From Spinacia oleracea (Eukaryota > Streptophyta > Magnoliopsida > Caryophyllales > Amaranthaceae), in the NCBI RefSeq assembly GCF_020520425.1, contig NC_079487.1, forward strand, positions 132,268,385 to 132,332,384: a stretch of 64,000 nt of DNA, given 5' to 3'. The notes under the pieces were generated by a model that worked only from the letters and a program-made list of their open reading frames with translations, was not told where the DNA came from and did no database searches. Positions 23,712 through 46,249 of the stretch are shown here, piece after piece. How positions within the stretch are numbered: position 1 is the stretch's first letter; each line of letters starts with the position of its first letter. Both the position numbers and the translations under genes were made by a program.

Positions 23712-24257
23712 TAAGTCCCCTGTTTTTTTGCTATTTAATGCTGAATTGAGGAAGAAATTTTGGTGTTTTCCTTGTATTTATTGAACTTGGTAAAAGTCAG
23801 ATTTTGGTCTTTTGTGGGGGGAAAGTGACCCTATTTATAAAGGGAATTCACTATGTCAACCCCTCAAAAATTTGGAGGGAAAATGAAAATCCCCTGTTTT
23901 TTTATTTGGGGGAAAATTTGGAGGGAAAACTGAAATCAATTGTTTGGGCTAAATTTCCAGCCAAAAAAAACGTGAGTCATTGTATGATTGTTTCTGATTG
24001 GTCCATGTAACAGCAGATGTGTCCCATACCCCATGTGACTGAAATTTTTTGCTGATTTCTTTCAATACTTTAATAAAATATCTACTTTTCTCCCTATTAA
24101 TTAAATACTTTCTCTCTCTTTACTTTATTCAATTTCTTACACCTAATCATTATTCTTACCCCCAATCATTACTCATATCCCAATACAAACCAAGATTCAG
24201 TTTTCTTAAACCACACCCAACATTCTTTAGGGGAAGAACAAAAGGGAATGGAGGGAG
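23070..24257 (-). mobile_element. 5' half of a Tc1/mariner element, truncated
   Basis: The right end CCCTTTGTTC...GGAATGGAGGGAG with TA after it (24258-24259) matches the left TIR of the complete mariner at 32395. Sequence is collinear with it through the promoter region and about the first 210 codons of transposase, then stops at 23074 (equivalent to about 33580 in the whole copy). Catalytic region, 3' half and the other TIR are gone. It ends about 90 bp before the leader exon of the NB-ARC gene at 25524 and may form part of that promoter. Confidence 0.9.
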
Positions 24258-25523
24258 TACTTTCTTGGAAGTGCGCAAAAAGAAGTCCAAACTCCAAATC
24301 CGTAGCGTTTAAATACACAAGAAAAAGAATAAAATTTACAGACTCCATTTGGAATTCACCTTTCTCTCTCTTCTACTACCGATCTCGAAGTCGACTCCCA
24401 CCACTTCACCCAGTTAAAAAGGTACTTTCTTACTCTTACTTCACCTACGGAGTAGTACTCTTTCTCATAATCCCTATTGATTATTGGTAACTAAGTTGAT
24501 TTTATTCAGAAATATTAGTACTTAATCTCCCTTGATGATTGAGTTTTGCTGTTTTTCCATTAAGATCAATCCATATTGTGTGTTTCTTGTTTTATTTGAT
24601 TGTTTAATGCTGATGGGTTGTGATAAAAGATCATGGGTTTTATCAATTCCAGAAATGGGGATTAGTTCATGTTTTTATTATTTAGATTTGGGTTAAATTT
24701 TTTTTTTTTTGATGCAACAATTGCATCCTTTTTTTAGGTTTCTAATGTCTCCAAAGCGATGAAGGGTGGGGAGCTAAACCCCTCTTTTATTTAGGTTTCT
24801 ATGTTTTCTGCGTTATTGTGGTCCGACTGCTTTAGTTGGTTTGGTTGTTAATGGCGGTTTTCCGGGCCCAGAGAGATGGGTGCGGAGCTTGGCTAGGGGT
24901 TTTGGGCGGGTTGTTCAAGCCCAACAGGGTTACGGGGAACCGGTCTCCGACTAGTCACCGCGCTTCAATGGGCAGGTCTGTGTGTTGAGCCGTTAGGTTT
25001 TGCCTATTTGCCGATCCTACCCATTTTTGACCCGAAATCAAACCCGACATGCATTAGTCTGGAGCCGACTCTACCCGAATATGAGTTGAACCAAATCCAA
25101 AAAGCTACACAACCCGACTTGAGTCGAACAAGAGCTGACCGGGGCACCTGAATTGGCCGTGTTACTGCATTTTTACTTTTAACAAATACAGAGTAATTAA
25201 AGTTGGCAGGCCTTTGCTAGTTTTCTGGTCTGAGCCAAATTTGAAAGTGTGTCCTACTGTCCTGCAGACTGCAGTGCTTGTGTCAAAACCGGTACTAGTC
25301 TAAGAGTCGGTTCGCAACCGAGCTGTGTGTTTCAATCTTGTTCCGGCACACTGGGTTGCCACTGCCCATTGGCCATTTTTGTTTGTAGAAATAGCCCTTT
25401 TTAATTCTTTTTACTACATTGACTTTTGGCTTTGATTGTGTTTTTACTCTTTTTAGTTAAAGTCTAAAAGAGTACATGAATTTTAACATACTAATCTTGT
25501 ACAGGAAGTCCGAAGTCTCCACG
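24258..25523 (+). other. Leader exon and intron of the NB-ARC gene at 25524
   Basis: A pyrimidine-rich likely 5' UTR exon ends at AAAAAG/GTACTTTC (about 24421); the acceptor CTTGTACAG/GAAGTCC (exon from about 25505) leads to the ATG at 25524. The intron of about 1.08 kb has no genes. The exon begins next to the truncated mariner end. Confidence 0.55.
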
Positions 25524-26651
25524 ATGAATTCCTTTCCTGTTCTTTTAGACACAGTTAGCTTTCTGGATATCTTAATCAAGGCAGAAAGCTTCGTCGACGG
25601 GAAGCGAATTCTTGAGGGAAAAGCTGATTACTTAAGAGCCAAAATAGAGGATGTTGAAGGAGCATTGTTTTCTGCTTCTATTCAACATGGGAAGAAGAGA
25701 AAGAGGGATGAAGACCTTTTTTTCTGGGCGACTAAGGGTCGGGAGCTTGTTCAGGTAGCAAGAAGCTTGTTAGGACATGATGGTCCAGAGAAGAAAAGAA
25801 AAGTGGAAGAACAGAGCATCAGCTACCTCCAAGCTTGTGCAAAGCTAGTAAAATTTCATAAATTGATGAAGACATTGTCAGACCATGAAGAGGAGGTTGA
25901 TGTGCTTCTGAGTTGCCCCATTTCTGATGAACAAGGCCCGGGTCGTGGTAATTTTATACCAGTGAGAGAATTATTTGGTCATGTAGCTTCTGATTCCTTG
26001 GAGCAACTTCTGGCTCTTTTACGAGGTGTTGAGATTGGAAGAATTGCTATTCATGGGGAAATAGGAATTGGTAAGACCTTTTTGATGAAGCACCTGCATA
26101 ACTCTGTGCTAAAATGGGAAGAGAGGTTTGATTGCGTTATCTGGGTAACTTGTCCTCATCAGTTCAGCATCGAGGGTGTTCAAGATGCTATTGCTGCTGC
26201 AGTGAAGTGTGAACTTTGCAGTGATGATGACGTGAATAAAAGGGCAGAAATATTGTCAGATACGCTTTCAGGCCTAGGAAGTTTTGTGCTTTTCCTAGAT
26301 GATGTTCCAGAATCCCAATTTTGTCCAGTTGAGATAGGAATCCTTGTCCCTGCTGAAGGGAGTAAGAGTAAGCTGGTTTTAACTACCAGGTCGGCTTTGG
26401 TTTCTGAAAAGTTGGGTTGTTTCAGAAAAGTGCATCTTGATCGCCTCTCTGACGAAGAAGCATGTGAATTGCTCTTGAATGAAGCGGGAATTAGTGGGAG
26501 GTCTGCTTCTTTGCTTAAAGGCATCCCTAACTTGCTTGCTAAGAAATGTTGTGGGGTGCCACTTATGATTACAGACATAGCTACTCGTATGTGTGGCATT
26601 GATGACATTCGGGAATGGAGAAATGCATTGTTTGAATTTGGGAAATCTTAA
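25524..26651 (+). CDS. Short LRR-less NB-ARC protein (375 aa)
   Basis: Putative NLR-derived nucleotide-binding protein that ends inside the NB-ARC. The start at 25524 is preferred over the in-frame ATG at 25476, which lies upstream of the acceptor. Order: helical N-terminus, basic KKRKRDE (about 57-63) and EKKRKVEE (about 90), P-loop GEIGIGKTF (about 178-186), kinase-2 VLFLDDV (about 255), RNBS-B VLTTRS with its arginine kept, GLPL equivalent GVPLMI (about 344), then REWRNALFEFGKS and stop. ARC2, MHD and LRR are absent. An acceptor-like TTTCAG/GC follows the stop, so the end may mark an old exon border. Paralogues at 44135 and 51306 end at the same point. All frames are intact, which argues against random decay. 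Partner or decoy role is inference. Confidence 0.85.
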   Translation: MNSFPVLLDTVSFLDILIKAESFVDGKRILEGKADYLRAKIEDVEGALFSASIQHGKKRKRDEDLFFWATKGRELVQVARSLLGHDGPEKKRKVEEQSISYLQACAKLVKFHKLMKTLSDHEEEVDVLLSCPISDEQGPGRGNFIPVRELFGHVASDSLEQLLALLRGVEIGRIAIHGEIGIGKTFLMKHLHNSVLKWEERFDCVIWVTCPHQFSIEGVQDAIAAAVKCELCSDDDVNKRAEILSDTLSGLGSFVLFLDDVPESQFCPVEIGILVPAEGSKSKLVLTTRSALVSEKLGCFRKVHLDRLSDEEACELLLNEAGISGRSASLLKGIPNLLAKKCCGVPLMITDIATRMCGIDDIREWRNALFEFGKS

Positions 26652-27780: not shown

Positions 27781-28363
27781 ACATCTTCAATCTACAGTAC
27801 TTAAAGGAGCAAATACCCAATTCAGAGGTAACTTTCTCATTTAATCTCCATTTTACAATAGTTATTTTACTTAATTTTGTCATGGTTTATTCTCCTTTTA
27901 TATGTTACAACTATTTATATGTTTTATGTTTGGATTGTTTATAAAATGATCCATGAATAGTTCAGGATTGGAACCCAGAAAATTTTTGACCTACAAATTA
28001 AAACAAAGAACTGAGCTTAGGATTAGCTATTCATCTGTATTTCCTGGTAGTTTCCCAAATTTGTAGCTGCTTAAAAACTCTTGCTTTTTTCTGTATGCAG
28101 ACCGTGTTTTCTTATTTTTCTTTTTGATGGCTTGGTTTTAAATCCATTTCCTAAATTAGTACTATTAACTCCGTAATTCTTACAAAATCACGAGTCGGTT
28201 GGTGTTATTAGTAATTTTTGGTGGTTAAATGTATCTACCTAGGTTCTACTTGTCCCTTAGGCTGCATATATGTTGGTAAAAGAAATTGATATATTCTCTT
28301 CTATGTAGATATATTATCATTATTCAGGATTCAGGATTCAGGATTCAGGATTCAGGATTCAGG
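27781..28363 (+). other. Leader exon and intron of NLR gene 28364
   Basis: A likely 5' UTR exon ends ATTCAGAG/GTAACTTT near 27828. The intron (about 0.5 kb) ends either at CTATGTAG/A near 28309 or in the ATTCAGG repeat just before the start codon. Confidence 0.5.
28321..28363 (+). repeat. Heptamer tandem repeat (ATTCAGG x5) abutting a start codon
   Basis: Five to six copies of ATTCAGG end directly at ATG 28364. Each unit contains a CAG/G that could act as a 3' splice site. If the intron ended upstream of the repeat it would be translated as repeated QDSGFRI from the in-frame ATG at 28286. Confidence 0.9.
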
Positions 28364-30994
28364 ATGTCAAATGACTGGATTATGGCCTCTGATTTGATTT
28401 GGGGGAAAGTGAGGAACTTGAAAGGGGGAAACCAAACTGAATCTGGGGTTACATCTGTCAGTATGAAGAAAAATTATGTTGTTCAATCGTGTGGAAAGCG
28501 TCAGAGAGAAGAAAGTGTGGAATTAGGAGTCAGGTCCATAGTAGGAAAACTGAACTTGGAATATGTAGAAAAGATTGTGAGTTGGTTGAAAGATGATAAG
28601 ATAAACAAAATTGGCGTGTTTGGGATGGGTGGTTGCGGCAAGACGACCCTTGCCGTTCATGTTTACAACCGACTTCTACGGAGTGAGCTTACGTATGTTG
28701 TTGTGTGGGTGACTGTAGGGATGGGTTTTGATATTCACAATTTGCAACTGTGTATTTCAAACGCTGTCGGCCTTGACCTTGATCACGAGAAGGACGAAAC
28801 AAGGAGAGCTGCTAGGTTGCATAGTTTTTTGTCTAAGAGAGGAAAATATGTGTTGATCCTTGACAATTTGTGGGACCATTTTTCCTTTGAGAAAGTTGGG
28901 ATCCCGTCCTCTGGTGCGTGTAAGGTGATCATAACGACTCGAATGTTGAGTGTTTGTAGGAGAATTAACTGCCACAAGACAATTAAGATTGGCATGCTTG
29001 GGCCTTGTGAAACATGGGAGTTATTTTGCAGCGTATATGGACATGAAGCGTTCACTTCTGACGACATTAGAGATGTAGCACGGCTTGTCTGTCAGGATTG
29101 TGGAGGTCTCCCACTTGCTATTGTTCATTTCGGTCGGAGTTTGAGGGGAGTGAATAGTGTTTCTGAGTGGAAACTTATTCTGCATAGACTCAAAGGGATG
29201 GAAAATGATTTTCTGATAACCAAGCATTTATTTCTGAAACTGCATTCTTCTTATGCAAAGTTGACCAGTGAAAAACTCAGGCTTTCTCTCTTGTATTGCA
29301 CTTTGTACCCTAAAGACTGCACAATCTCTAGAGAAGAGTTAATACGTCTTTGGATTTCCGTGGGTCTAATAGAGGAGGTGTCATCTTTGCAAACACAATA
29401 TGACAAGGGTCACACCATACTGAATAATCTCGTGGACTGCAGCTTGCTGGAATCCTCAAAAGATGGGCATTTTGTGAAAATGCATGATATGATCAGGAAT
29501 ATGGCTATTAGAATCACTGGACAAGAAACCGGACCAAAGTTTTTGGTCAAATGTGGTGCACAGTTACAATACTTGGAGGAGTTAAAGGAAGATTTCCGTG
29601 CTGTTTCACTGTCGAGAAATAACATTACGGAAATCCCTTTCGGCGCTTCTCCAAAGTGTCCCAAGCTTTTAGTCTTGCTGTTGCAGCAGAACCCTTTGAA
29701 AAATGTTCCTGCTTCGTTCTTTTTGCATATGCCGAATCTCCATGTCCTTAACCTTTCAAGCACTTTCATTCAGAGACTACCTGACTCAATAAGTGACCTG
29801 AAGAGTCTAAAAAGCTTACTTCTTCGTTGTTGTCAGAAGCTCACGTATGTCCCTTCATTGGCAAACTTAAATGCTTTGCAAATCTTGGACCTAGGTTACT
29901 CTGCCATTAAACAAATCCCTACTGGCATGGAGATGCTAACCATGCTGAGAGAGCTGGATGTTTCCGGTTTACACAAATTAAAGGATTTGGGTTATGGGTT
30001 GATTGCCAAGCTACCTGCATTGAGGCGTATATCGTGCTATATGGTGGGGATCTTGCAAGAGCTGCAAAGTTTAAGGTCCCTTGAAATTCTTGACGTGACA
30101 TTCCATGACATAAGTGACTACAACAGTTATGTTAAGTCCGAACATTGGCGATTGTTGGACAGTTTCCACCTCCAAGTTGGAGATACTATTGAGCAAGAGC
30201 AGCAAACTAACAAAGGAGTGTGTCATTTTAGAAATAAAGTGTCCTTTTACGGGTGTTCTCTTGTTGGTGAAAGAGAGCAAGAGCAGCTCATCCTACCAGA
30301 AAGTATAAATCAGTTGCACATAGACAATTGCGAAGGTCTTGGCAGCCTATGTGAAACGCTGAACTGGAATGACAAGCCTGAGTTTAAGGATAGTTTAATT
30401 TCCGAAACTGCCCTGCTAGGAAATTCTCAAACTTGCAACGCGGAATGTAAAAACTTGTACTTGGAAAGTACCAGTCTACACAGCTCGAAACATCACTTAG
30501 ATGGAGGCATATGTGGTGGAATCCTTCCGAACCTAGAAATATGTACAATCAGTAGGTGCCATGACATTGAAAAATTGTTCACCCCTATGCAGATTATGGG
30601 TCTCGGAAATCTTGAAACTCTGGAAATTAGGGATTGTTCTGAGTTGAAGGAATTGATTACTGAGGAAAATGGTGATAGATCCCCATCAAAAAGTAGTCCT
30701 TATAGTGTCAAGTTGCCAAATCTGAGAAGGTTAGAACTGACACGGTTGCCAATGCTGTCCAGCATTTATAGGGGTCTATTGCTTTGCACCTCTCTCCAGT
30801 CTATTATGGTTGATGACTGTCCGAAACTTACTCGGCTGCCGTTCTCCTTTTTCTTGGACGATCAACACAAATTTCTTCTCCCAACTCTTCAACAAATTGA
30901 AGGATCAGTTGAATGGTGGGATTCATTACAACTAAGCCAAACGGATACTAAATCATTACTGCAAACTCTTTTCAGATCAAAAAAGTCTCCATAG
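28364..30994 (+). CDS. RPS2-like NB-ARC-LRR disease-resistance protein (876 aa)
   Basis: The only complete canonical NLR here. Intracellular receptor: LRR sensing, NB-ARC switch. The start at 28364 (MSNDW) is preferred; an in-frame ATG at 28286 would add 26 residues made by the heptamer repeat and intron-like DNA. N-terminus of about 85 residues with GKRQREE, shorter than a typical coiled-coil domain. P-loop GMGGCGKTT (about 87-95), kinase-2 VLILDNLW (about 163-170), RNBS-B VIITTR (about 190), GLPLAIV (about 248), LYPKD, MHD in KMHDMIRNMA (about 373-382). LRRs from about 410, e.g. LLVLLLQQNPLKNVP and LQILDLGYSAIKQIP, then a C-terminal LRR-like section to about 860. One uninterrupted exon, as in RPS2/RPS5-like genes. 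Looks functional. Confidence 0.92.
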   Translation: MSNDWIMASDLIWGKVRNLKGGNQTESGVTSVSMKKNYVVQSCGKRQREESVELGVRSIVGKLNLEYVEKIVSWLKDDKINKIGVFGMGGCGKTTLAVHVYNRLLRSELTYVVVWVTVGMGFDIHNLQLCISNAVGLDLDHEKDETRRAARLHSFLSKRGKYVLILDNLWDHFSFEKVGIPSSGACKVIITTRMLSVCRRINCHKTIKIGMLGPCETWELFCSVYGHEAFTSDDIRDVARLVCQDCGGLPLAIVHFGRSLRGVNSVSEWKLILHRLKGMENDFLITKHLFLKLHSSYAKLTSEKLRLSLLYCTLYPKDCTISREELIRLWISVGLIEEVSSLQTQYDKGHTILNNLVDCSLLESSKDGHFVKMHDMIRNMAIRITGQETGPKFLVKCGAQLQYLEELKEDFRAVSLSRNNITEIPFGASPKCPKLLVLLLQQNPLKNVPASFFLHMPNLHVLNLSSTFIQRLPDSISDLKSLKSLLLRCCQKLTYVPSLANLNALQILDLGYSAIKQIPTGMEMLTMLRELDVSGLHKLKDLGYGLIAKLPALRRISCYMVGILQELQSLRSLEILDVTFHDISDYNSYVKSEHWRLLDSFHLQVGDTIEQEQQTNKGVCHFRNKVSFYGCSLVGEREQEQLILPESINQLHIDNCEGLGSLCETLNWNDKPEFKDSLISETALLGNSQTCNAECKNLYLESTSLHSSKHHLDGGICGGILPNLEICTISRCHDIEKLFTPMQIMGLGNLETLEIRDCSELKELITEENGDRSPSKSSPYSVKLPNLRRLELTRLPMLSSIYRGLLLCTSLQSIMVDDCPKLTRLPFSFFLDDQHKFLLPTLQQIEGSVEWWDSLQLSQTDTKSLLQTLFRSKKSP

Positions 30995-32394
30995 TCGGCT
31001 TCAGAATCATTAGTTGCTGGTCCGTGAAGGTGGGCATGAGTGCAGGTCATGGTAACAATTTTACTTCCTTCTGTTATTCCATAATCTTCGAAATATTGTT
31101 GAAACCGACCACTTTTAGTGCATAATATACATCTTATACATATTGAAGTTGACACAAAAACCTCTTAACCGTATATTTTTCTTCCCTATGTCAAATCTAT
31201 TTGAGAACACATCCAAGACAAATTCTTGTACGGAGTAGTCTAGTTAGTTATATATATATCTGTAGTTCCTGGCGAGGTGAGAGTATAGACGATACTCCGT
31301 ATGTTTCAAACTTGGCGTTTTCTTTATTTTGTTTCCAAACGAGTCTTTTGATCCAAATGCCCCTATTGTATTCTTTTTCATACACCCCGTGTCCGGGTTA
31401 AGTTGTCACACTATTAATTCTAGATGAAGGGGGTATTTGCTTGAAGTGTAATGCAGATAGTTGTTACCTCTTTCCATTACTATCACGAAGTGTTTGATTA
31501 TGGCAAGAATATTTGCAGTGAGATATGTTTTTTACAGTTAGTGTGAAGTCATCTAAGCTATGGGTTGCAGACCACAGTAATTTCAGTGAGAAATGTATTT
31601 GTTACTCCATTTGTTTAGTTTGAGCTTACCATGGGAATAGCTGTGCAGTGTCCTGTAAAGTGTAAAGTTTGACCTATTAATAGTATTGTATCCTTCAATT
31701 ACTTTCAGGTCTTCAAAGACCATGATATATGAAGAAATAATTTGTTACTGCGCTTGCTTCAGAACTTGGGTTTTTTCTGTGTTTTCGCTTTTAAATCTAG
31801 GCTTCTCTTTTGATTAGGGGCATGTTAATTTGGTCCATATCTTTAATATCCTGGTTTTTAGGTGGAAAATCGGTGGGTTATGCTGTTATACATCTGCATT
31901 AGCCTTGGTTCATTATATTTTTCGTCTGTACAGGTTGTTATAGTGTAAACAGTCAAAATTGGGGTTTTTTAGACTTGGCTTGTTCATGTTCGATCTCAAG
32001 TAGTCTTTGCCTATTGTTTTCTACGGTGTGCTGAGTATTAGTTTTCATAAATAAATTAAATTTGTTTTGCAATTGTTGTTTTGATAGATTTCTCTTCTTT
32101 TTATCCAGATCGAGGAGAGCATGAAACTGTTCAACAAGGTTTTGCGACATCATATCGAGAATTTTGTGAACTTTGAAGCTGTGAATGATGTGAAACTTGA
32201 TAATTTCTTACAATGGACATATAGATTATGTATAAATCTTTTGTAATTAGTACCTTTATATATGAATTGGAAACTCAATAAGCATTTGAAACTATTTCGA
32301 ATGATGATTTACCTACATTTTTTTTACTACTCTGTACTCAATAAGCATTTGCAACTATTTCAAATGATGATCATGTATAAATCTTTTGTAATTA
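30995..32394. other. 3' flank of NLR gene 28364
   Basis: Probably 3' UTR with one or more introns: donor-like CATG/GTAACAA near 31050, acceptor-like TTATCCAG/ATCGAGG near 32109. No ORF of note. A direct repeat containing ACTCAATAAGCATTTG (32272 and 32336) lies just before the mariner. Confidence 0.4.
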
Positions 32395-32939
32395 CTCCCT
32401 CCATTCCTTTTTGTTGTACCCATAAGGAATGTTGGGGGTTTTTTAAGAAAACTGAATCTTGGGTTGTATTGGGATATGAGTAATGATTGGGTGTAAGAAT
32501 AATGATTGTGTGTAAGAAAAAGAATAAAGTAAAGAGAGAGAAAGTATTAAATTAATTGGGGAAAAAGTAGATATTTATTAAAGTATTGAATTAAATCAAC
32601 AAACATTTCAGTCACATGGGCTAGGGGACCCAACAGAAATTACATGGACCAATCAGATTACAATGAGTCACGTTTTTTTTGGCTGGAATATTTGCCCAAA
32701 AAACAGACTCCCAAATTTCCCTCCAAAATTTCCATGAAATTTTCCCAAAAAATTAAACATTGACTTAGTGTTTCCCTCCAAAATTTTGAGGGGTAGAAAA
32801 AGTGATATGCCTTTATAAATAGGCTGACTTTCCCCACAAAACACCAAAATTCTGATCCAACTCAAGTTCAATAAATACAAACACACACCAAAATTTATTC
32901 CTCAACTCAGCATTAAATAGCTAAAAAACAGGGGACTTA

Positions 32940-34586
32940 ATGGCTTCAGATCAAGAGGAAGACGATTTCCTCGGTTTTTCTGATGATGAAGGCGACGGCA
33001 TTAACTCCGATTCTGACTCGGAGGAAGGTGATGATGCTGCTGACTTGGTACAAGCTTCTCAAAATACTGCTGCTGAATTTGGGGACATTGGGTTTAATGA
33101 AGATGTACCAAACAGCACTGAATATGTACAGCAAGTACCAGAAGTAGAAGGGGAAGGGCAGCAGCAAACTACCAACTTTCAAGAGGTACCATTTATTTTT
33201 GATTTGAACTTTCCACCACCATCAGAAAATGCATCACCTCATCATCATCAAACAGCAACACACACAACAGATCATCACAAGCCAAGGACTCCAAGAATAA
33301 ATAATGAATTGAGGCTAGAAATATTGGTGTTCCTGCTCAATAGAAAGATTCCAGATTCAGAAACTTTGTTGTATGGGGCAATAAGGGATGCAGTCATAGA
33401 ATATGATTACACCAGAAAAACCATAGGCAAAATATGGGACAAAGCAAAGAAACAGAAGGCAGCAATGAATTCATATATTGTGCAAAGCCAATATCACAGA
33501 TGTGGAAGGAAAAAGGTTCAAGTCTCCTATGACTCAATTGCAAAAATAGGCATGGGGGACAGAACATGCATCGTAGATCTTGCAAGAATGCTGAATTTGG
33601 GACCAACAACAGTATGGAGGCTCATCAAGAGGAAAATTATAAAGCCACACTCAAGTCCCTTGCATCCAGGCATTTCAGAAGCATGCAAAATGGCAAGGAT
33701 AAGGTGGGCAATCAGACTGATAATGGACTACACTATACCACAGGAACCAACATATTACAGCATGTATGACTTCATTCATATTGATGAGAAGTGGTTTTAT
33801 TTGACTCAAAAAAACCAGAGAGTTTATCTTGCAAACAATGAACCCTATCCACACAGAAGTGCAAGTTCAAGAACCAAGATACCAAAATTCATGTTCATGG
33901 CAGCAGTAGCCAGACCAAGGTGGGGTGAAAATGGGGAATGTGAATTTGATGGTAAAATAGGCATATTTCCATTCACAAATGCAATTGCAGCCAAGAGGAC
34001 ATCAAAAAACAGACTCAAGGGGACCATTGAAACAAAGCCAGTGAAGTCTGTAAATCAAATAGAGACAAGGGCAATGATGATCAACAACCTCCTTCCAGCA
34101 ATCAAGGCCAAGTGGCCACCACATGAAGGGGAAAAGGTCATCTATATCATTCAAGATAATGCAAAGGCACATATATTGCAAAGTGATCCTGAATGGCAAC
34201 TACACTACAAACAAGATGGGTTCACTTTTGTGTTGACTCAACAGCCAGCAAACAGTCCAGATTGCAACATCTTGGACTTGGGATTTTTCAGGTCAATACA
34301 ATCACTTATGCACAAGAAAATGCCTAAAACTGTGGAGGACTTAAGTGGAGCAGTGTATGATTCTTTTAATGAGTTGCATCCTAAGACATTGTCTAATGTG
34401 TGGATGACATTACAGTTTGTTTCTAATGAGATTCTAAAACACAAAGGCAACAATGATTACCAACTTCCACACAACAAGAAGAAGATTTTAGAAGATGAAG
34501 GCAGACTGCCAGAGCAAGTCAAGGCACCTATATGGGCAGTTAATGAATGCATGCAACTCTATGATGAATGGAAAGCAAACCAGTGA
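32940..34586 (+). CDS. Plant mariner-like transposase, DD39D (548 aa)
   Basis: Cut-and-paste transposase that integrates at TA. Uninterrupted frame. Acidic N-terminus (1-80, many D/E), a Pro/His-rich linker, a helix-turn-helix DNA-binding part (about 120-225, with RKTIGKIWDKAKKQKAA), then the catalytic domain: IDEKWFY (first Asp about 281), IQDNAKAHI (second Asp about 405) and NSPDCNILDLGFF (third Asp 39 residues after the second, counted on the sequence). This DD39D signature is typical of plant mariner-like elements. Start: first ATG after the promoter stretch; the same start occurs in the truncated copy at 23711. All catalytic residues are present, so it is probably active and could also act in trans on Stowaway MITEs. 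Confidence 0.95.
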   Translation: MASDQEEDDFLGFSDDEGDGINSDSDSEEGDDAADLVQASQNTAAEFGDIGFNEDVPNSTEYVQQVPEVEGEGQQQTTNFQEVPFIFDLNFPPPSENASPHHHQTATHTTDHHKPRTPRINNELRLEILVFLLNRKIPDSETLLYGAIRDAVIEYDYTRKTIGKIWDKAKKQKAAMNSYIVQSQYHRCGRKKVQVSYDSIAKIGMGDRTCIVDLARMLNLGPTTVWRLIKRKIIKPHSSPLHPGISEACKMARIRWAIRLIMDYTIPQEPTYYSMYDFIHIDEKWFYLTQKNQRVYLANNEPYPHRSASSRTKIPKFMFMAAVARPRWGENGECEFDGKIGIFPFTNAIAAKRTSKNRLKGTIETKPVKSVNQIETRAMMINNLLPAIKAKWPPHEGEKVIYIIQDNAKAHILQSDPEWQLHYKQDGFTFVLTQQPANSPDCNILDLGFFRSIQSLMHKKMPKTVEDLSGAVYDSFNELHPKTLSNVWMTLQFVSNEILKHKGNNDYQLPHNKKKILEDEGRLPEQVKAPIWAVNECMQLYDEWKANQ

Positions 34587-34819
34587 AGCAAAGTGAAAAC
34601 AATTAGATAACTTTTTGTGTTTTGGGGACATGTTTTTAAATTGACAAGTAAAACCAATGTGTCACTTTTGTAAGCTTAAATGCAAGCATAACATGTAGGC
34701 AAAACATTTTGTAAGCATATCTTTTGGAAGCATCAATGAATGAATCTCATGTTTAAGTGTAGTAAAGTTTGTTTTCTTCATTCTTATTCACATCAATATA
34801 GAGTAATCAAGGCAAGGCA

Positions 34820-34935
34820 ATAAAAAAGGCAGCATTGGCAGAAAAAGTACAAGGCACAAGAGGTAAGGCAGCATTGGCAACACTATAAACAAGGCAGCAT
34901 TGGGTTCTTAAGAACAAGGCAGCATTTGCAATATC
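34820..34935 (+). repeat. Short direct repeats AAGGCAGCATTGGCA downstream of transposase
   Basis: AAGGCAGCATT occurs about four times between 34827 and 34926 at 25-40 bp spacing. It lies within the probable transposase 3' UTR; possible subterminal binding motifs, function unknown. Confidence 0.75.
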
Positions 34936-34946
34936 ACAACTCTAAA

Positions 34947-35027
34947 CACATCGGCTTCAAAATGGAAATAAATAATAATATCACATCATTTTCAGATGGA
35001 AATTATTCCCATTTTGAAACCGATGCG
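34947..35027 (+). other. Foldback II-a in mariner
   Basis: Arms CACATCGGCTTCAAAATGG and CCATTTTGAAACCGATGCG pair over about 24 bp with few mismatches. The loop contains TCACATCATTTTCAGATGGA, which is shared with foldback II-b. Confidence 0.75.
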
Positions 35028-35142
35028 TCAAAAGATGTAATTTTGACAAAAACAATCAATTCATCATTGATAACACATGGAATATGCCTCACATAAACAA
35101 AGATTCATAAATATCTCAGAATGTCCCCAAAAATCATTGAAT

Positions 35143-35227
35143 CAAACCCTTTCCAATTAAACTTAGCTCCTGAAAAACATCATGGATGCTAATGGTGCAT
35201 GAGTTTGATTGAAAAACAAAGGGTTTG
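35143..35227 (+). other. Foldback I-a in mariner
   Basis: Outer stem CAAACCCTTT / AAAGGGTTTG, inner stem AATTAAACT / AGTTTGATT separated by an internal loop. The terminal loop is TTAGCTCCTGAAAAACATC onward to GCTAATGGTGCA. Preceded by CTCAGAATGTCCCCAA, followed by AGACTCATCACAGATCACA. Confidence 0.75.
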
Positions 35228-35301
35228 ACACTCATAAAATGAAGACTCATCACAGATCACAAGGCATAAGTACAAAAACTTTATCACATCACATCTCTAA
35301 G

Positions 35302-35379
35302 CACATCGGCATCCAAATGGAAAGAATGCATATCACATCATTTTCAGATGGAAATTCTTCCCCATTGGATGCCGATGTG
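35302..35379 (+). other. Foldback II-b in mariner
   Basis: Arms CACATCGGCATCCAAATGG and CCCATTGGATGCCGATGTG pair over about 26 bp. The loop TCACATCATTTTCAGATGGA is the same as in II-a; the stem differs at several positions, changed on both arms. Confidence 0.78.
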
Positions 35380-35511
35380 CCAAAAGATGTAATGGACAAG
35401 GAAACAAGAACAAAGCAGCAAAAACAAGGAAGCAATGAACAAGGCAACATCATTGACTCTCAGTTAAGTTGTTTTACATCATTGACAGATTTGTTTCTAA
35501 ATGATTTACAA

Positions 35512-35596
35512 CCTCACCACCAATTCACCAAAGGGGATACTAGATCAATCAATGATGTGACATGATCTGTATTCCCTTTGGTGATTGGTGGTGAGG
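35512..35596 (+). other. Near-perfect 34-bp foldback in mariner
   Basis: Arm CCTCACCACCAATTCACCAA continuing through AGGGGATACTAGATCA pairs with TGATCTGTATTCCC, then TTTGGTGATTGGTGGTGAGG. Only two single-base bulges and one G-U pair are seen, with a loop of about 15 bases. In size and pairing it resembles a miRNA-type precursor; expression unknown. Confidence 0.85.
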
Positions 35597-35764
35597 GACA
35601 TGTTTAGAATCAAATATCTCAGGTTATCAACACATACATCACAGATCAGAAACACTAACTTCATTGAATATCAGAAACACATTATACATGTTTTGCAATA
35701 CATGAATTGCCTCTCCTGTCTAACCTGACATAAGATCTCAGAATGTCCCCAAGCATCATTGACA

Positions 35765-35847
35765 CAAACCCTATCCCCTAACACTTAGCTCCGGAAGAGC
35801 ATCAATGATGCTAATGGTGCACAAGTGTTATTGGAACATTGGGTTTG
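35765..35847 (+). other. Foldback I-b in mariner
   Basis: Outer stem CAAACCC / GGGTTTG, inner TAACACTT / AAGTGTTA. Loop AGCTCCGGAAGAGCATCAAT to GCTAATGGTGCA as in I-a. Flanks CTCAGAATGTCCCCAAGC and AGACTCATCACAGATCA are shared. Confidence 0.75.
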
Positions 35848-36086
35848 AGTCTCAGCAAATGAAAGACTCATCACAGATCAAGCATAACAATATCAATCAA
35901 CAATGCATCAGATCACCATGAACTGATCAAAACATAGGGTTTGAACCTCATCAAATGAAAGACTCATCACAGACCTCCACTGATTCATGGGACATGAAGC
36001 ATTAAACAGATCATTAACATGTAGGGTTTCATTTCTCAGACATATTGACACACATCATTGATCAAGTAGTTTCAATACTATCATAT

Positions 36087-36176
36087 CTTTAACATTCTTC
36101 TGCCGAACGGAATGATTGATATTCACATTCCATTGTGTGAAATGACATTCACTCCGTTCGACAAAAGAAGTTAAAG
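36087..36176 (+). other. Foldback III in mariner
   Basis: Arms CTTTAACATTCTTCTGCCG plus AACGGAATGA pair with TCACTCCGTTCG plus ACAAAAGAAGTTAAAG over about 27 bp, with G-U pairs and one bulge. The loop differs from the other classes. Confidence 0.78.
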
Positions 36177-36278
36177 GACAATTATCAAAACAAAGATCTC
36201 AGAATATCAACAATCACATCATTGAAGATCACAAACCTCCTAATATTGATCTCAGAATGTCCCCAAGCATCATTAAAA

Positions 36279-36365
36279 CAACTCCAAACCACAAACACTT
36301 AGCGCCCGAGAAATATCATTACTGATACTAATGGCAGCACGAGCATTTGTGGTTAGTTGGACTTG
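36279..36365 (+). other. Foldback I-c in mariner
   Basis: Arms CAACTCCAAACCACAAA and TTTGTGGTTAGTTGGACTTG; loop TTAGCGCCCGAGAAATATC to ATACTAATGGCAGCA, a diverged class I loop. The upstream flank CTCAGAATGTCCCCAAGC is the same as in I-b. Confidence 0.7.
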
Positions 36366-36892
36366 TTCCTCAGCAAAAAAAAGACTCATCATCGATCACA
36401 ACAAATAAAGGGACATTATTGTATCCTAAAGGGACATGCTTGGACATTAAGCATTCAACACCAGGCCACACTGAGAGGACTGAAATAACCCAAACCCTAT
36501 CCCCAAATTATGATCATTTCATGCCCTTACTAATCCAAAACATAGTTATACTGATCAAATCTCATACTCACCAAAGCATCATATTTATCATACACAAAAC
36601 ATACCATAAAACAGGGGACATTAAGCCATCAAATCATGTTCATCACACAGACAACATTCCACAAAATTTCATAACCATATGGAAACACCATCATCCAATC
36701 ATCATTATCAATATCAATTTCATAACATCATTATCTAACATCAACATCCATACAACTAATCACAACATCATCATCCAAACAACAACACCCCTGACCAACA
36801 ACAGATCACAGTTGTTGGCATCCACCTTATGACTCCACAGCTAGCCAGCATTCAATAAAATGAAAAAAGGGAGAAAGGAGACAGACTTATCT

Positions 36893-38076
36893 AAGCATCA
36901 TCAGACGCTGAAGCCGATTTTTTTCCCTTCCCTCCTTTCTTTGAGGAGGGATAACCAGATGAAAGTTGTCCTGGAGACCCAATAGCATCACCATTCTCAT
37001 TTTCACACTCTCCAACATACACCAGATCAAATGAATCAGACCCACTTGGTTCCTTGCAATCAACAGGGGACAAACAACATGATTAGTGCCCTCATAAAAT
37101 AACAGGGGACCATGAATTAAAATCAGATTTAATCAAACAACTCAAAATAAAGTTCCAAATAATTTCAGATCACCATGGTTACCACATGCAATGAGATAAA
37201 TGAGAGCAAATCACACAATAATTCCATTAAAATCCAACTAATTATCCGAATACATCCAGATCCCATTTTTACCCAAAAAATGTGAAATAATATCCCAAAA
37301 ACATCCAGATCCCATTTTTAACCACGTGAAATGGGAAATCAGATCAACAAAACACAGGAATATTCCGATTTTCTTCAAATAATTTCCAAATACCTCCAAA
37401 TAAAATAAGAACTCAATTTTAACAACATGCAATGAAAAAACAGAGCACAAAATACCCATAGAACTCAATTTTAACAACATGCAATGAGAAAACAGAGCAA
37501 AGAATAACATAAAAAGCCCGAATGAATCCAACAGATCTCCAAAAAATTCCCAATCATTTCGAAATAATACCAGATCTGCATTTTTAACACATGCAATGGG
37601 AAATCAGACCAACTTATCCAAAAAATAATCCGAGTTTAATGAACAATACTCCAAATAAATCCAACATTTATCAAATCCCACTTTTTTAGACATGCAAACA
37701 ATCATCAAACCATTTTATTAAAACCGACATCAATAACCCTTAAAAAATCGAAAAAAATCAAAAGTAATACCTCATCGGAATCTCCTTCACCGAAAAAACG
37801 CAGATCTGAGGGAGTGGGTTTCCGATCGTCATATTTTGACTCAACCTCCTCTCCTGGCTCCACTTCCCTCTTCCGAAACCATTCTTCCAAATAGTTTCGA
37901 GTACTCGTATTTTCTTTTTGGGCCAAATACAGATTGTTTTTATATTCGGCGGAGTAGGAATGCTCGTTATTGGGACAGTTGCACTTGGATCCCCAATCAC
38001 AGTTGGAATCGGGGATTCTTTGACCAGTAGTTCCCACCCCAGAATCACCTCGAGTTCTAGAAAAAGAAGAACCCAT
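36893..38076 (-). CDS. Probable second mariner-borne gene, unknown 155-aa protein
   Basis: Proposed exons 38076-37771 and 37054-36893. Exon 1 starts MGSSFSRTRGDSGVG, includes CDWGSKCNCPNNEHS and the charged part NYLEEWFRKREVEPGEEVE, and ends GEGDSDE at donor GATGAG/GTATTAC. Exon 2 follows the acceptor TTGCAAG/GAACC in phase and reads EPSGSDSFDLVYVGECEN to a Lys/Ser tail KKGGKGKKSASASDDA and stop. The upstream DNA looks like a plant 5' UTR (pyrimidine-rich, GA/CT microsatellite, no stops needed). I do not recognise the family; the Cys/His spacing is too loose for a named zinc finger. It converges on the transposase gene. Alternatives: a captured host gene fragment, or a chance frame with fortunate splice sites. 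Confidence 0.45.
37230..37690 (-). repeat. Degenerate repeats in the proposed intron of the second mariner gene
   Basis: About five units of some 70-90 bp with TTTTAACAACATGCAATG, GAGAAAACAGAGCAAA and CAGATCCCATTTTTA words. They fall between the two proposed exons; no coding content. Confidence 0.6.
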
Positions 38077-38274
38077 AACGTACCAGAAAAACAAAGATCA
38101 GCGACGATTAGGGACCAAAAAGGGGACAAAAATAGAGGGGATCTGATCGGAAAATCAATCCGAGTAATTTGTATGAAAGTTTTTCGGCAAAAACGTTTCA
38201 GATTTGTGAGATTTGGAGAGGAAAACCTAGATCAGAGGCGGAAAACCTAGGGTTTTCTCAAGAACAGGGGAGGG

Positions 38275-38400
38275 ATTTTAAGAGAGAGAGAGAGTGAAAT
38301 AAGAGAGAGAGAGAGATCCGAAGAGGTGAGAGAGAGAAATCAGAATGAGAGAGAGAGAAATCAGAATGAGAGAGTGAAATCAGAGGGATGAAAGGGATGG
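38275..38400 (-). promoter_or_regulatory. GA/CT-rich leader or promoter of the second mariner gene
   Basis: GAGAGAGAGA runs (CT on the coding strand) lie 200-320 bp before the proposed ATG at 38076. Such runs are common around plant transcription starts. No clear TATA box was identified. Confidence 0.35.
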
Positions 38401-38774
38401 GTAATAAAGGGAGGGGGGGTAGGGTTAGGTTAAATAATTAAATAAGGTGGGTGGGGTAAAAGTGGGTGGGAAAGGGTAGAATCTTAGGGTATTTTTTGTA
38501 AATATTGGGGAATCTTAGGGTAAATTGGTAAAAAAAACTATGGCCAAAAATAGTAAAGATTCAGTAGGGGAACAACAAAAAGAAACGCCAAAAAAGGAAA
38601 TGGGAACAACAAAAAGGAATGGAGGGAGTACTAATTAGTAATACAGAATGCAATTATATTTCCATTTAAGTTGTTACTTGTAATTCAGCACCTCTTTTCT
38701 CCTGAGGATCAAAGTTCAATTTGTTGTTGTAGCGACTGATATTGCACATTACTTTATCAATTCCACTCGCATGG

Positions 38775-41700
38775 ACCCGGTCCACCATAAGATTACCATG
38801 GACCAGGGTAATTAGGTAATTTTTAACAGTGAGTAAATTATAGAAACTGTAGGTTCTGTAAAGTAACTATATCTCTAGAATAATAACTATGAACATAATA
38901 ATGATAAGAATAACTATTCTATCCAAAGAGTAACTATATCATATAGAAAAGTAATTTTAACTGTAAAACAATTACTACTATATATTCATTCTTGCAGACA
39001 AAAAGAGTAAATTATAGAAACTATAGGTTCTGTAAAGTAACTATATTTTCAGAATAGTAACTATGAAATAAATAATAATAATAATAATATAGTAATTTCG
39101 ATGAGAACAATTATTCTATCCAAAGATTAACTATATTATATAGAAAAATAACTTTAGCTGTAAAACAATTACTATATTATAAAAATAAACAATATGATAT
39201 AGATGGTTTAGAGGTCATATAGTAATTTTTTCTATTATATATCACATAATTACTGAAATATAAAAGAGTAACTATATCAAAAGTAACAGTAATTATAACT
39301 CTTGAACAATAATAAAGAAAACATTAACTACTTGGTTAGTTGTTTTAGCTACGACATTTTAATTCTTTGCATCTATTAAATAAACCATCTTAAACTCAAA
39401 TGTTTTTTGAACTAAAAATACTAATCGACACGTCCACGTGGACCACGTCTTTTTTTTCCACCAACACATCATGTCCTTCCTCTACCACGTTCTTGGTTTC
39501 CATTGTTGTCAGGATTTTCTTCTTCTCCTCCTGCTTTTGTTTTCCTTGCAGAATTTATTCTTTGCACGATTTCAATTCTGGGTGCATCATCTTTGTATTT
39601 CTGAATCAATAATATTTAAACTAAGTTAATAATTTAACATTTAAATATGAAAAAATAACATAGTAACTATGTAAAACGTGTAGTTTCTATTATGCATCAT
39701 ATAGTAACTCTTACAATTAACGATGGTAAAATACTTGCAGAATTGCATATATAGTTATTGTTATTGTTATAGTCATATAGTTACTGTCAAAATAATATAG
39801 TCACTTTTATTAATAATAACATGGAGTACAAAGAAAGATCATAAAAAGAACATAATGATAAGATAATAACTATTAAAAATATATAGTTACTATTATACAT
39901 GATATAGTAACTCTTAATATTAATGATAATCATATACGAGCAAGGTTGTAGATATAGTTATTGTTATGATCATATAGTTGTTGTGATCATAACATAGTAA
40001 CTCTTATTACTAATAACATAGAAGAAAACAAAGAACATGAAAAGAACATTATAATATACATAAAAAATTATACCAAACATATAGTTACTATAATACAAGA
40101 TATAATACCTATAAATATTATTGATGGTCATTTAGTCACAGAGTTGCAGACATAGTCGATGTGATAATAATATAGTAACTCTATCCATAATACAGTAACT
40201 ATATCATTAAAAATATAGAATAACATAAAAACATGCACATAACATAATAAACTAACATAGTACCTATTTCAAAAATATAGTAACTATATAAAACGTACAA
40301 TAACTATTAAAGAAAATAAACATATGGTAACAAGTCATGATAAAATAAACATAATATCTATTTCAAACATATAGTAACTATATAAATAATATAGTAACTA
40401 TATAAATAATATAGTAACTATATAAATAATATAATAACTATTGAAGAAAATAAACATATGGTAACATATCATGATAAAATAAACATAGTACCTATTTCAA
40501 ACATATAGTAACTAATATAATAATATAGTAACTATTGTACACATATAGTAACCATTATAATCACACAACAACTAGCTTAACATATAGTGACTATTATTAT
40601 AATAAAGTAACTATTGTACAAATATAGTAATTATTATAATCATATACTATCTAAGAAGCAGACAAAAATATACTCGAAATAACATATTACATAATGTAAT
40701 CGTATAGTAACTATTATTTATCAAAAAGTCACTATAAACTGTTCTTAACATAGTAACTATCTTAAACACATAGTTATTGTTTTAAATTTATAATAACTTT
40801 CTAAAAAATATAGTAACTATTTTAAACACATAGTTACTGTTATAAAGTTATAGTAACTTTTTAAAAAATATAGTCACTCTAAAAACTACTACTAACATAA
40901 ACACAATGAATATTCCAATGACTATTAAAAACATTATTTCGCAACTTAAATTAAAGGTAACTATATCATTTATATACTAACTATATGAAACACTAGCCCT
41001 AATTTCACCCAAACAACAAACACTATTTCTACCTCTTGTGCTTTGCTGCATCAATTCTTAAAGTTCACAGCCTTTGTCTCTTTTTTCTAAATTTAAGGCA
41101 TTATTTCTTCTTATACAAATGATATTGTAAAGTATTTTTGGAGATTCGTCACTAGATAGTGCAACTTTAGGACCTGGAATAACATGTGATTGATACTTCG
41201 TATTATTTTCTTATACAAATATCAAATATATAGTAACTATATAAACCATATAGTAACTATATAAACCATATAGTGACTATTATTAAAATATAGTAACTAT
41301 TGAACACATATAGTAACCATTATAATCATATAGTCACTATCTAAGAAGCGGACAAATACATACTCTAAATAACATAGTACATAATGTAATCGTATAGTAA
41401 CTATTATTTATTAAAAAGTCACTATAAACTGTTCATAACATAATAACTATCTTAAACACATAGTTACTGTTTTAAACTTATAATAACTTTCTAAAAAATA
41501 TAGCGACTATTTTAAACACATAGTTACTGTTTTAAAGTTATAGTAACTTTTAAAAAAAGTATAGTTACTCAAAAAACTACTACTAACATAAACACAACGA
41601 ACATTCCAGTGACTATTAAAAACACTAATTCGCAACATAAATTAAAGGTGACTATATCATTTATATACTAACTATGTGAAACACTAACCCTAATTTCAAC

Positions 41701-42509
41701 AAAACAACAAACATTTCGAATCACTCAACAAAATAATAACTATTGTACACATATAGTAACTGTTGTACACATATAGTAACCATTAAAATAATATAGTAAC
41801 TATTGTACACATATAGTAACCATTAAAATTACATAGTACCTCTTTAAACCATATAGTTACTGTATTACTCATATAGTTACTATTTAAAATCGTGAAGTCA
41901 CTGATCGAATTCGCGAAGTGAAAACGATACTTCGGTAAAACACAAACATTAATTTCTTCAAAACAACAAATATTTTCAATTTTAAATAAAAATAGACTTA
42001 AAATTCTTTAAAAAACAACAAACCGAGATGTGATCTCTAAAAATTATTGCGAAGATTTGTAGGCGAGCGCAAATTCTTCGATTCGATTTCGGCAACGACG
42101 AACCTCCTTCTTGATCTACTACTTCCTCCAATTTTTCCTCATCAAATAGATCCAATCATAAGAATTATAAGATAATTACGAAAAAAATCGAACAAAACCT
42201 AGAAATTTGGGCTAAATTTTGAAAAGCATAGAGAGAAAATGAAGAGAGAGAAAATGAAAGAGAATGAACAGAATGTAGATCTGAAATTTTGAAAAATAAA
42301 AAAGTTTAAAACGTATATAAAGTGGGTTAGACAAAAATCGCATTAAAACTCTTCAAAACACATAGTAACTCTTTAAAACACATAGTTACTGTAATACGCA
42401 TATAGTTACTATTTAAAATTACAAAATAACTGTCACGTGACAGTTACATATGTTACCCATAAAAATTACTCCGTTGCCCTGGTCCACGCTAAGTTAGCAT
42501 GGACCAGGT
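38775..42509 (-). mobile_element. Degenerate TIR element filled with ATAGTAACTAT arrays
   Basis: Inverted ends of about 50 bp: left ACCCGGTCCACCATAAGATT then ACCATGGACCAGGG, right (reversed) ACCTGGTCCATGCTAACTTA then GCGTGGACCAGGG. No target duplication was found. The interior is mostly variants of ATATAGTAACTAT in both orientations, with a direct duplication of about 500 bp at a 690-bp offset (about 40500-41030 and 41190-41720). On the minus strand two stretches look like coding remnants: near 42140-42000 (LDLFDEEKLEEVVDQEGG) and near 39590-39430 (DAPRIEIVQRINSARKTKAG, then Gly/Arg-rich). A Mutator-like origin is possible but unproven. Tandem array and remnants together suggest an old element eroded by repeat expansion. 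Confidence 0.6.
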
Positions 42510-44134: not shown

Positions 44135-45241
44135 TCACACCCCTGGTTCAAACAATGCATATCTCCATTCATGAAGGTCTTCAATGCCACACATACGAGT
44201 AGCCAAATTCACAATCATCCGGGGAACTCCACCACACCTCTCAGCAAGCAATCTAGGAATGTTATTAAGCAAAGTAACAGATTTTGTGTCAATTTTTGCT
44301 TCATTCAGAAACAACTCGAATGCTTCGTTTTCTGAAAGACAATCTACTTCAACTGTTTCAAAACCATCCAAAATCCTGCACCATGAGGTGGAGTTAGTAG
44401 TTAATACCAGTTTACACTCACTCCCATTTGTTGGGACTGTGATTCCTATTTCATCCAAGGAAAAATTTGCATTTGGTACACCATCTAAGAAAAGAACAAA
44501 ACTGCCTAAACTAGCAAGCTTATTTGACAGTATTCCACCCCTTATTCTCAAATCATCATCACTAGAAATATCACACTTTAACACAGCAGCAACAGCATCT
44601 TGCACATGCTTGATACTGAACTTTTCAGGGGAAGTAACCCAGAAAACATAATCAAACCTCTCAACCCATTTTAAAACACAGTTATGCAAGTGTTTCATCA
44701 AAAAGGTCTTACCAATTCCTTCTCTCCCACGAATAGCAACCCGTTCAACCTCACAATTCTGCAATAGACACTCAATTTCCTCCAGAGTGTTCAATGTGGT
44801 TTGCCCCATTATCTCCTGCACTGGCAAATGATTACCGCGATGAAGGACTTGTTCATCAGACAAGGGGCGCGTGTTAAGCACATCGCCCTTCTTGTCATGG
44901 ACTGTAAGTGCATCAACCACATTTTCAAGAACCTTTCTCTTCTTTGCTCTAGATATGAAGCTCTTACATTCTTCAATTTGAGTTAGCAAGTTTTCCGCCA
45001 CCTTCAAAAGCTCCCGACTCTCAGCTACCCAAACATGAATCTCATTGTCTCGCTTTCTCTTCTTGGTTCTTTGAACTGGAATAGAGAATAATGGTCTTTC
45101 AATGTTCTCTATGTCATCTAATCTGGCTCTTAGGTACTCAAATTTACCCTGTAAAACCCGTTTTCTTTCACCAAATCTGGGAACCTCGGCTAAGAGGGTC
45201 AAAAGGGTGAGAATTCCCCCAACAACTACCAAGGCATCCAT
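44135..45241 (-). CDS. Short LRR-less NB-ARC protein (368 aa)
   Basis: Paralogue of the genes at 25524 and 51306. Starts MDALVVVGGILTLLTLLAE at the first ATG after the acceptor TTTTTTACAG (exon from 45264). Basic KKRKRDNE (about 61-68) and AKKRKVLEN (about 100). P-loop GREGIGKTF (about 171-179) is intact. Kinase-2 reads VLFLDGV: the second Asp is Gly. RNBS-B reads VLTTNS: the arginine is lost. GLPL equivalent GVPRMI (about 335). It ends HEWRYALFEPGV, the same point as its paralogues, so ARC2, MHD and LRR are absent. Nucleotide binding is plausible, hydrolysis doubtful (inference from known NB-ARC residue roles). Frame intact; transcribed away from the 51306 gene. Confidence 0.85.
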   Translation of the reverse strand: MDALVVVGGILTLLTLLAEVPRFGERKRVLQGKFEYLRARLDDIENIERPLFSIPVQRTKKRKRDNEIHVWVAESRELLKVAENLLTQIEECKSFISRAKKRKVLENVVDALTVHDKKGDVLNTRPLSDEQVLHRGNHLPVQEIMGQTTLNTLEEIECLLQNCEVERVAIRGREGIGKTFLMKHLHNCVLKWVERFDYVFWVTSPEKFSIKHVQDAVAAVLKCDISSDDDLRIRGGILSNKLASLGSFVLFLDGVPNANFSLDEIGITVPTNGSECKLVLTTNSTSWCRILDGFETVEVDCLSENEAFELFLNEAKIDTKSVTLLNNIPRLLAERCGGVPRMIVNLATRMCGIEDLHEWRYALFEPGV

Positions 45242-46249
45242 AGGGAAGAGTACTTAGTTACTACCTGTAAAAAATCAGCATATTAGTCACTCGGAAGCTG
45301 ATACATATACCCAAGGTGCCAAATTGTAACATACCACTGGTTCCCATTGGTTTTTTTCACGTAAGCAACCCCGCGTGGGATTAAAATTTAAATCTAAAAT
45401 ATCAAATGGTATTTGAATTTGCAATTTTAGACCAATCCCGGCTCAGGGTTTAATACACTAAGGTATATGTAGCCTTTTCGTAGTCACCCTCCTAAATCAA
45501 AATACCAAAACAAGGATGCAAATGAAAGGGCTTGCATAAAAATTCTAGGTTAGAATCCAGCAGAAACTACACAAAAAATTTCCAATTTTCAGGCAAACGT
45601 ATCGAGAAAATTTGCAAAATTGAAGGAATTAGTTGTGCATCATTATAGAGGCAGTCAGTGAGTGATGATTAAATGGTTTGTGTTACCGAATTGAAGGTCT
45701 TACGGTGCACGGAAACACTCCAATGGGTCGACGTTTCTTACAAATTGATGCTTAAAAAAACGTTTCGAAACGAAGACCCAATTCGTTTCAGAATAATGTA
45801 AGCTCGTGGAAACAATTTACCGGCGAGATTCCGAGATAACTCAGGCGGATCAGCCGTTCCAAATCATCTCGAATCGTGGATAAATTAATTTTCCGGCGAC
45901 ATTCCGGCGGAATAGATGAAGCACAGAGTTTGAACATATGTAGGAATTTTCTAAATCGCAAACAAAGAGGGGCGATTCTATTTAAAATCAATAATGAGAT
46001 TAAATTTGTTTTTTCCGGCAGCTAATTCATGAATTAGAAAAACATAGTAATAAAATCAGCAAAGATAAAATGGGAATTGAAGAGAATTCAAAAGAGATGA
46101 GAGAAGATGTAATTACCTGTAAGACGGAAGTGGTAAGGAGACTGGGAGAGTATGGGGGAAAACAGAGTCAAGATTTTGTGAAGTCGGAAAACGAAGTACT
46201 TCGTATATCATTTTGTGTTGGATTCCACCCCTTTTTATATGAAGATTTT
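45242..46249 (-). other. Leader exon and intron of the NB-ARC gene 44135
   Basis: A pyrimidine-rich stretch ends CTTACAG/GTAATTAC near 46121 and is a likely 5' UTR exon; the intron would run to 45265. No other gene is seen. The small frame at 46070-46261 overlaps this leader on the opposite strand and is not called. Confidence 0.45.

Follow-up and report, generated by a model that had tools for sequence, protein, structure and literature searches.

Putative miRNA-like hairpins with shared bases and differing duplexes within a plant mariner-like element

The mariner-like element and its surroundings

The window analyzed here is a 64-kb stretch that, judging by its genes, is plant nuclear DNA; its open reading frames include resistance-type NB-ARC genes, a UDP-glycosyltransferase and a MULE transposase. 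NB-ARC genes or gene fragments were found at six places (16293-17964, 25461-26651, 28280-30994, 44135-45253, 51297-52403 and 57887-59482), two of them confirmed by Pfam and the other four judged from their translations. Positions 40166-41891 are taken up by a large, AT-rich tandem array whose ATAGTAACTAT-type units of about 20 bp are imperfect palindromes.

Within this window lies a full-length element (Table 1) with the TA target sites and terminal inverted repeats of a plant mariner-like element; its two ends, including the TA, match at 97% over 31 nt. In the transposase, 39 residues lie between D406 and D446 as counted from the motif positions, which corresponds to a DD39D signature. D446 is the D of LDLGFF, and the spacing to the earlier D441 is 34. 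Searches of Pfam with the whole transposase frame gave HTH matches alone, all below the cutoff, and the C-terminal part matched DDE_3 below the cutoff as well (E 0.011; 16 bits vs a cutoff of 28.6). The search of PDB sequences with the transposase returned no match up to E 1, and the search for relatives gave one pattern match in viral contigs and ten in genome contigs, none of which was confirmed by tblastn. An initial reading of the sequence had described the hairpins as mariner-borne, and the TA sites, the terminal repeats and the DD39D transposase at 32395-38628 bear this out.

The hairpins are internal to the full-length element, approximately 2.2-2.5 kb from both of its ends. A single further copy of the element was found in the window (23073-24262, minus strand); it is 87.9% identical over 1.2 kb and truncated, stopping at 23073, before the array, and carries no hairpins. 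A 90-bp stretch starting where this copy stops (22984-23073) is identical to 19954-20043.

Table 1. Features of the mariner-like element; for the hairpins the strand given is the probable RNA strand, and z-scores are for folding on the plus and minus strands.
Feature	Position	Strand	Remarks
Mariner-like element, 6,234 bp	32395-38628		termini CTCCCTCC...GGAGGGAG, TA on each side
Flanking TA sites	32393-32394 and 38629-38630
Left terminal inverted repeat	32395-32423	+	28 of the first 29 bases equal the right end
Transposase ORF, 548 aa	32940-34586	+	motifs HIDEKWF, QDNAKAH, SPDCNILDLGFF
Hairpin IIa, class II	34929-35045	-	z -5.8 plus, -9.7 minus
Hairpin IA, class I	35108-35266	-	one arm bulged by 5-6 nt; core 35125-35245: z -4.6 plus, -2.9 minus
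Hairpin IIb, class II	35280-35400	-	z -8.4 plus, -13.8 minus
Hairpin III	35480-35622		long stem, at the expected class I place; z -9.8 plus, -9.1 minus
Hairpin IB, class I	35730-35890	-	core 35747-35865: z -4.3 plus, -3.3 minus
Relic	35929-35973		class I right half; partner arm not seen
Hairpin IIc	36080-36185	-	class II kinship not established; z -6.6 plus, -10.0 minus
Hairpin IC, class I	36244-36408	-	core 36262-36382: z -3.3 plus, -4.8 minus
ORF2 exon 2, with stop	36891-37052	-	AG acceptor and frame from the sequence; splicing predicted
ORF2 exon 1, ATG at 38076	37771-38076	-	frame and GT donor from the sequence; splicing predicted
CT-rich stretch upstream of ORF2	38270-38390	-	contains tandem repeat 38279-38385
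Right terminal inverted repeat	38600-38628	-	28 of 29 bases pair with the left end

Folding and classes of the seven hairpins

Seven foldbacks occur in the element, and they are real and above chance. All seven had been noticed in the sequence-only reading, although their paired region is longer than was described there, extending over approximately 34929-36408. Each hairpin was compared with 200 dinucleotide shuffles on each strand. None of the 200 plus-strand shuffles folded as well for six of them and one did for IC; on the minus strand, none was as good for five hairpins, one for IA and two for IB. A scan of 3,194 windows, in which an island was defined by z < -4 together with a gain of at least 10 kcal/mol, found 21 strong hairpin islands, six of which fall within about 1.3 kb (34921-36201). 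IC is not among them.

The upstream word reported for class I, CTCAGAATGTCCCCAA, is common to all three class I copies (IA, IB and IC). IA and IB both contain AGACTCATCACAGATCA, which carries two changes in IC; TCACATCATTTTCAGATGGA is present in both IIa and IIb. The loop had been described as constant, which is correct for IA with IB and for IIa with IIb; IC, however, reads ACTAATGG, not GCTAATGG, and its upper stem and loop are 61-65% identical to those of the other two copies. The assignment of hairpins to two classes was likewise upheld in part. IA, IB and IC in class I, and IIa and IIb in class II, are certain copies, whereas the membership of III is weak and that of IIc unsupported: for III against class I, 3-25 of 300 shuffles were as good in five of six tests and 278 of 300 in the sixth, and for the flank similarity of IIc to class II, which was rejected, 17, 218 and 63 of 300 shuffles were as good.

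Probable RNA strand and the second reading frame

The minimum energy is lower on the minus strand for six of the seven hairpins (e.g., -54.5 vs -33.6 for IIa), and the shuffle z-score is better on the minus strand for IIa, IIb, IIc and IC and on the plus strand for IA, IB and III. The folding advantage of minus over plus averages 8.3 kcal/mol inside the array and 0.0 outside, with a standard deviation outside of 8.0. Stem mismatches that are able to pair as G-U number 16 on the minus strand and three on the plus strand, a skew with p = 0.004 at even odds and p = 0.09 under a null of local base composition. In IIa, IIb and IIc together the skew is 14:0; four of these sites are common to IIa and IIb, and the approximately ten distinct sites give p = 0.02 under the composition null. 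Six hand-picked control hairpins (two MITE-like pairs and four islands chosen from the 15 that lie outside the array) also lean to the minus strand, 12:2, with seven of the 12 coming from one tandem array. We consider the minus strand to be the likely, though not proven, RNA strand.

On the same strand, upstream of the array, two predicted exons form a second reading frame, ORF2, of 155 aa when joined. It runs antisense to the transposase, with a predicted intron at 37770-37053. Pfam gave no match for the ORF2 exons, the query for exon 2 being the stretch that holds most of it. We know of no second gene in plant mariner-like elements. CT-rich stretches such as the one upstream of ORF2 are often seen in plant 5' leaders; a bacterial promoter scan of the upstream region was set aside as having no bearing on plant DNA. 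Within the predicted intron, 37145-37622 is occupied by degenerate repeats, about 40-76 nt long and built around CATTGCATGTGTTAAAAATG on the minus strand, that belong to the families D2, D4 and D6.

No AATAAA occurs on the minus strand from the ORF2 stop to position 34000, and the plus strand has one at 34819, past the transposase stop and ahead of the first hairpin. The ORF2 transcript could therefore cross the array, and that of the transposase could terminate before reaching it. This argument for read-through is a weak one, because polyadenylation signals in plants are loose and the plus strand is A-rich here.

Constant base and variable duplex in class I

In class I, flank identity is 86-96% on the 5' side and 74-87% on the 3' side, compared with 55-68% for the 5' arm and 31-69% for the 3' arm; the upper stem and loop are 83% identical between IA and IB. 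For the three pairwise comparisons, which are mutually dependent, Fisher tests of flanks against arms with the loops left out gave p = 0.013, 5e-5 and 2e-4, and tests of flanks and loops together against arms gave 0.013, 2e-4 and 0.018. Loops alone against arms gave 0.09 (IA/IB), 0.018 and 0.5 (IB/IC). The base is thus clearly more constant than the duplex, and the loop is so only in part. On the minus strand the flanks pair with each other through 13 basal pairs in two helices, 11 of which are the same in every lettered row, and the constant words of class I therefore correspond to the base of the predicted precursor.

The duplexes differ among the copies, yet each arm is matched by its own partner, as had been claimed: 19, 17 and 18 of 21 pairs are formed in the three class I copies, and class II agrees on its two copies. 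When the same numbers of substitutions were placed at random (20,000 trials in each of six directed comparisons), the mean number of pairs was 8.0-11.7, and the observed pairing exceeded this null with p from 0.0055 down to 0 of 20,000. Drift alone, which had been expected to break the pairing, is rejected for class I on these grounds. The proposed test for compensatory changes also gave a positive result. On the plus strand ten pairs are changed on both sides, a number reached by none of 500 shuffles and compared with 0-3 when the partner is slid; on the minus strand nine pairs are changed on both sides (one of 500 shuffles; 0-3 when slid). These counts are to be read with the caveat that the structure was folded from the same sequences, so that it is favoured over the slid versions, and that the shuffles ignore relatedness. 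Inspection of class I by eye gave nothing in the way of a codon period.

Selection at the RNA level is supported, but not proven, by this pattern. Arms might instead be kept complementary by arm-to-arm copying, through template switching or conversion at the DNA level, as a mutational by-product in which RNA selection has no part. This explanation is the strongest of the alternatives, although we consider it unlikely. Such a mechanism has been described for RNA stems (PMC8794818), and it accords with the 21 variable class I pairs on the plus strand, where no one-sided changes were found against 3, 8 and 4 two-sided changes in the three comparisons. Copying should, however, give perfect arms, whereas the stems hold mismatches and their potential G-U pairs are skewed to one strand. 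One-sided changes do occur on the minus strand (1, 4 and 4 over all 38 class I pairs), and copying alone does not explain why the arms diverge faster than the flanks.

A slightly less probable alternative is a host-directed silencing trap, where Dicer-like proteins would cut the hairpins to siRNAs that silence the element and the matching of the stems would reflect nothing more than their young age. Plant transposon hairpins have been described as sources of siRNAs that may mature to miRNA genes (PMC3086885; PMC10004981). Nevertheless, faster change in the duplex with the pairing kept is unexpected for decaying young inverted repeats.

Class II and the origin of the array

In the class II pair, IIa and IIb, flanks and loop are identical at 49 of 50 positions and the arms at 38 of 50 (p = 9e-4, a value that leaves out alignment columns 81-89, which hold a 3-base gap and its border); with columns 81-86, gap included, put back, flanks and loop are identical at 52 of 56 positions and p becomes 0.015. 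On the minus strand 35 pairs are the same, two have one-sided and four two-sided changes, and none is broken. MAFFT alignments that include IIc or III were left out of the pair counts, with the exception of the IIa/IIb pair listing, which comes from the IIc alignment. Within a 22-nt arm the two hairpins have two differences, both of them synonymous in one frame. A codon-period reading of these differences is at chance level, with a probability of 0.09 (that strand) to 0.13 (either strand).

The copies in class I and in class II show homology across flanks and arms, with identities of 81% and 75% (151 columns) and 82% (125 columns). A further stretch, 35931-35973 within the relic, is 90.7% identical to 35835-35877, and none of 300 shuffles was as good. 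Since this half copy has no partner, class I copies evidently also decay. The hairpins follow each other in the order IIa-IA, IIb-III, IB, IIc-IC, an arrangement suggestive of duplication of a unit of two hairpins; the evidence from the kinship of III and IIc and from the spacers is mixed, the spacers between class II and class I hairpins being matched or exceeded in similarity by 51, 18 and 2 of 300 shuffles.

The least probable alternative, that several small inverted-repeat insertions or inverted duplications arose independently, with flanks alike by chance and no function, draws on III and IIc, which are not clearly related to the classes, and on how often the CTCCCTCC/GGAGGGAG words recur in the window (at 12 places, many of them as Stowaway-like termini), but the five class I and class II hairpins are not independent because they are homologous over both flanks and arms.

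miRNA precursor features and targets

Plant miRNA duplexes are expected to be of 21-22 nt with at most five mismatches, of which at most three are asymmetric. On the minus strand all seven hairpins have at least one placement that passes this rule, IA with only one of 104, and on the plus strand six of seven pass, IA with none of 87. The rule is lenient and discriminates weakly: outside the array 965 of 3,111 windows pass on the plus strand and 918 of 3,111 on the minus strand (about 30%), against 31 of 70 and 49 of 70, respectively, inside it. Stricter duplexes of 21-22 nt with at most two mismatches were found on the minus strand in 20 of 70 windows inside and 121 of 3,111 outside. With at most one mismatch, the counts are 11 of 70 vs 31 of 3,111 on the minus strand and 5 of 70 vs 16 of 3,111 on the plus strand. 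The 12 border windows were excluded from both the inside and the outside counts. On the minus strand IIa contains 21-nt duplexes without any mismatch. The likeness to small-RNA precursors drawn earlier is thus a fair analogy in view of the enrichment of duplexes with at most two mismatches; it was, however, drawn on the plus strand, and six of the seven hairpins have the lower energy on the minus strand.

The arm complementary to the plus-strand 5' arm changes less, both in class II (22 of 26 positions identical vs 16 of 24) and in two of the three class I pairs, and may therefore be the guide.

Rfam gave no match in the window at the gathering score. Relaxed matches to MIR families (E down to 6e-6) were rejected as shape matches, since every one listed falls short of its gathering score, the best having 39.4 bits against 87, 48 below gathering. 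ARAGORN found no tRNA.

A search for targets of the arms gave no convincing site in the window outside the array (34900-36450 masked), where the best sites of the 14 arms have 3-6 mismatches, as do those of five shuffles of each arm, and 13 of the 14 arms match no better than their own shuffles. The 5' arm of IB beat all its shuffles with three mismatches at 36486; this site is itself within the element and could be a further relic.

A model for the hairpin array

The interpretation that we prefer, to which we give roughly even odds, is that the array is a cluster of young miRNA-like precursors carried by a DD39D mariner-like element, most likely on the minus strand as the 3' part of ORF2. In class I each unit would then act as a scaffold: its paired base is conserved, its duplex of about 21-25 bp varies, and its loop-side end is conserved between the two most similar copies. 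Local duplication within the element would have given rise to the copies, after which the duplex would have stayed paired while its sequence changed faster than the base. From here the model is built on inference: once the array is transcribed, each hairpin would release its own, different small RNA through the host Dicer-like pathway, and after loading onto Argonaute these small RNAs could, by analogy with rice miR820, target host genes such as those for silencing factors and thereby benefit the element.

In plants, Dicer-like 1 places its first cut by a 15-17-bp stretch below the duplex or by a paired stretch above it (PMC7577975). A ruler of this kind would tolerate changes in the duplex as long as the base stays constant. 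A bolder form of the model, which we regard as doubtful, is that of an autonomous mariner-type transposon with a diversifying microRNA cassette in its second gene, selected for new host targets. It is a similarly speculative step to view that cassette as a set of constant processing scaffolds with exchangeable 21-25-bp duplexes, the transposon counterpart of a variable effector array.

In ordinary plant miRNA families the mature duplex is conserved and the remainder drifts. The arrangement here would be the opposite if the model is right, with one DNA transposon maintaining several small-RNA precursors side by side that can be re-aimed. The element would provide a direct system for studying how miRNA specificity changes while the precursor stays processable, and for finding out whether transposons use more than one small RNA to counter silencing by the host.

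Comparison with known systems

Transposon-derived plant miRNAs and template switching in stems are already in print (PMC3086885, PMC10004981, PMC3459959, PMC8794818). Among the matches listed in the open-access literature, none described a mariner-like element with an array of hairpins, which is not proof of novelty. The element resembles other plant DD39D mariner-like elements in its TA target site, terminal repeats and DD39D transposase (PMC4054914), and it carries a second, antisense ORF and the hairpin array.

One close likeness is to rice miR820, whose precursors lie in CACTA DNA transposons and whose target is OsDRM2 (PMC3459959): in both cases miRNA-type hairpins are found inside the body of a DNA transposon. 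By this analogy alone, host silencing genes would be the first target candidates. Of the five miR820-carrying element copies described, three encode the same mature sequence and the other two depart from it by one and two bases (PMC3459959), whereas here the element is of the mariner type and holds seven different putative precursors in a single copy. Stowaway and other MITE-derived plant miRNAs are similar in that Tc1/mariner-related repeats provide miRNA-like foldbacks, although there the foldback is the MITE itself (PMC10004981), while the present hairpins are internal to a full-length element.

The trans-species miRNA superfamilies of Cuscuta also form related sets with variable mature sequences (PMC6917502), as the putative small RNAs of the array would. 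In Cuscuta the variation, which sequencing supports, often recurs every third nucleotide in step with the codons of the target (PMC6917502), unlike the two synonymous differences between IIa and IIb, which are at chance level (9-13% of trials). What is unusual in the present element is the combination, in which several re-sequenced duplexes stand on shared bases within one transposon.
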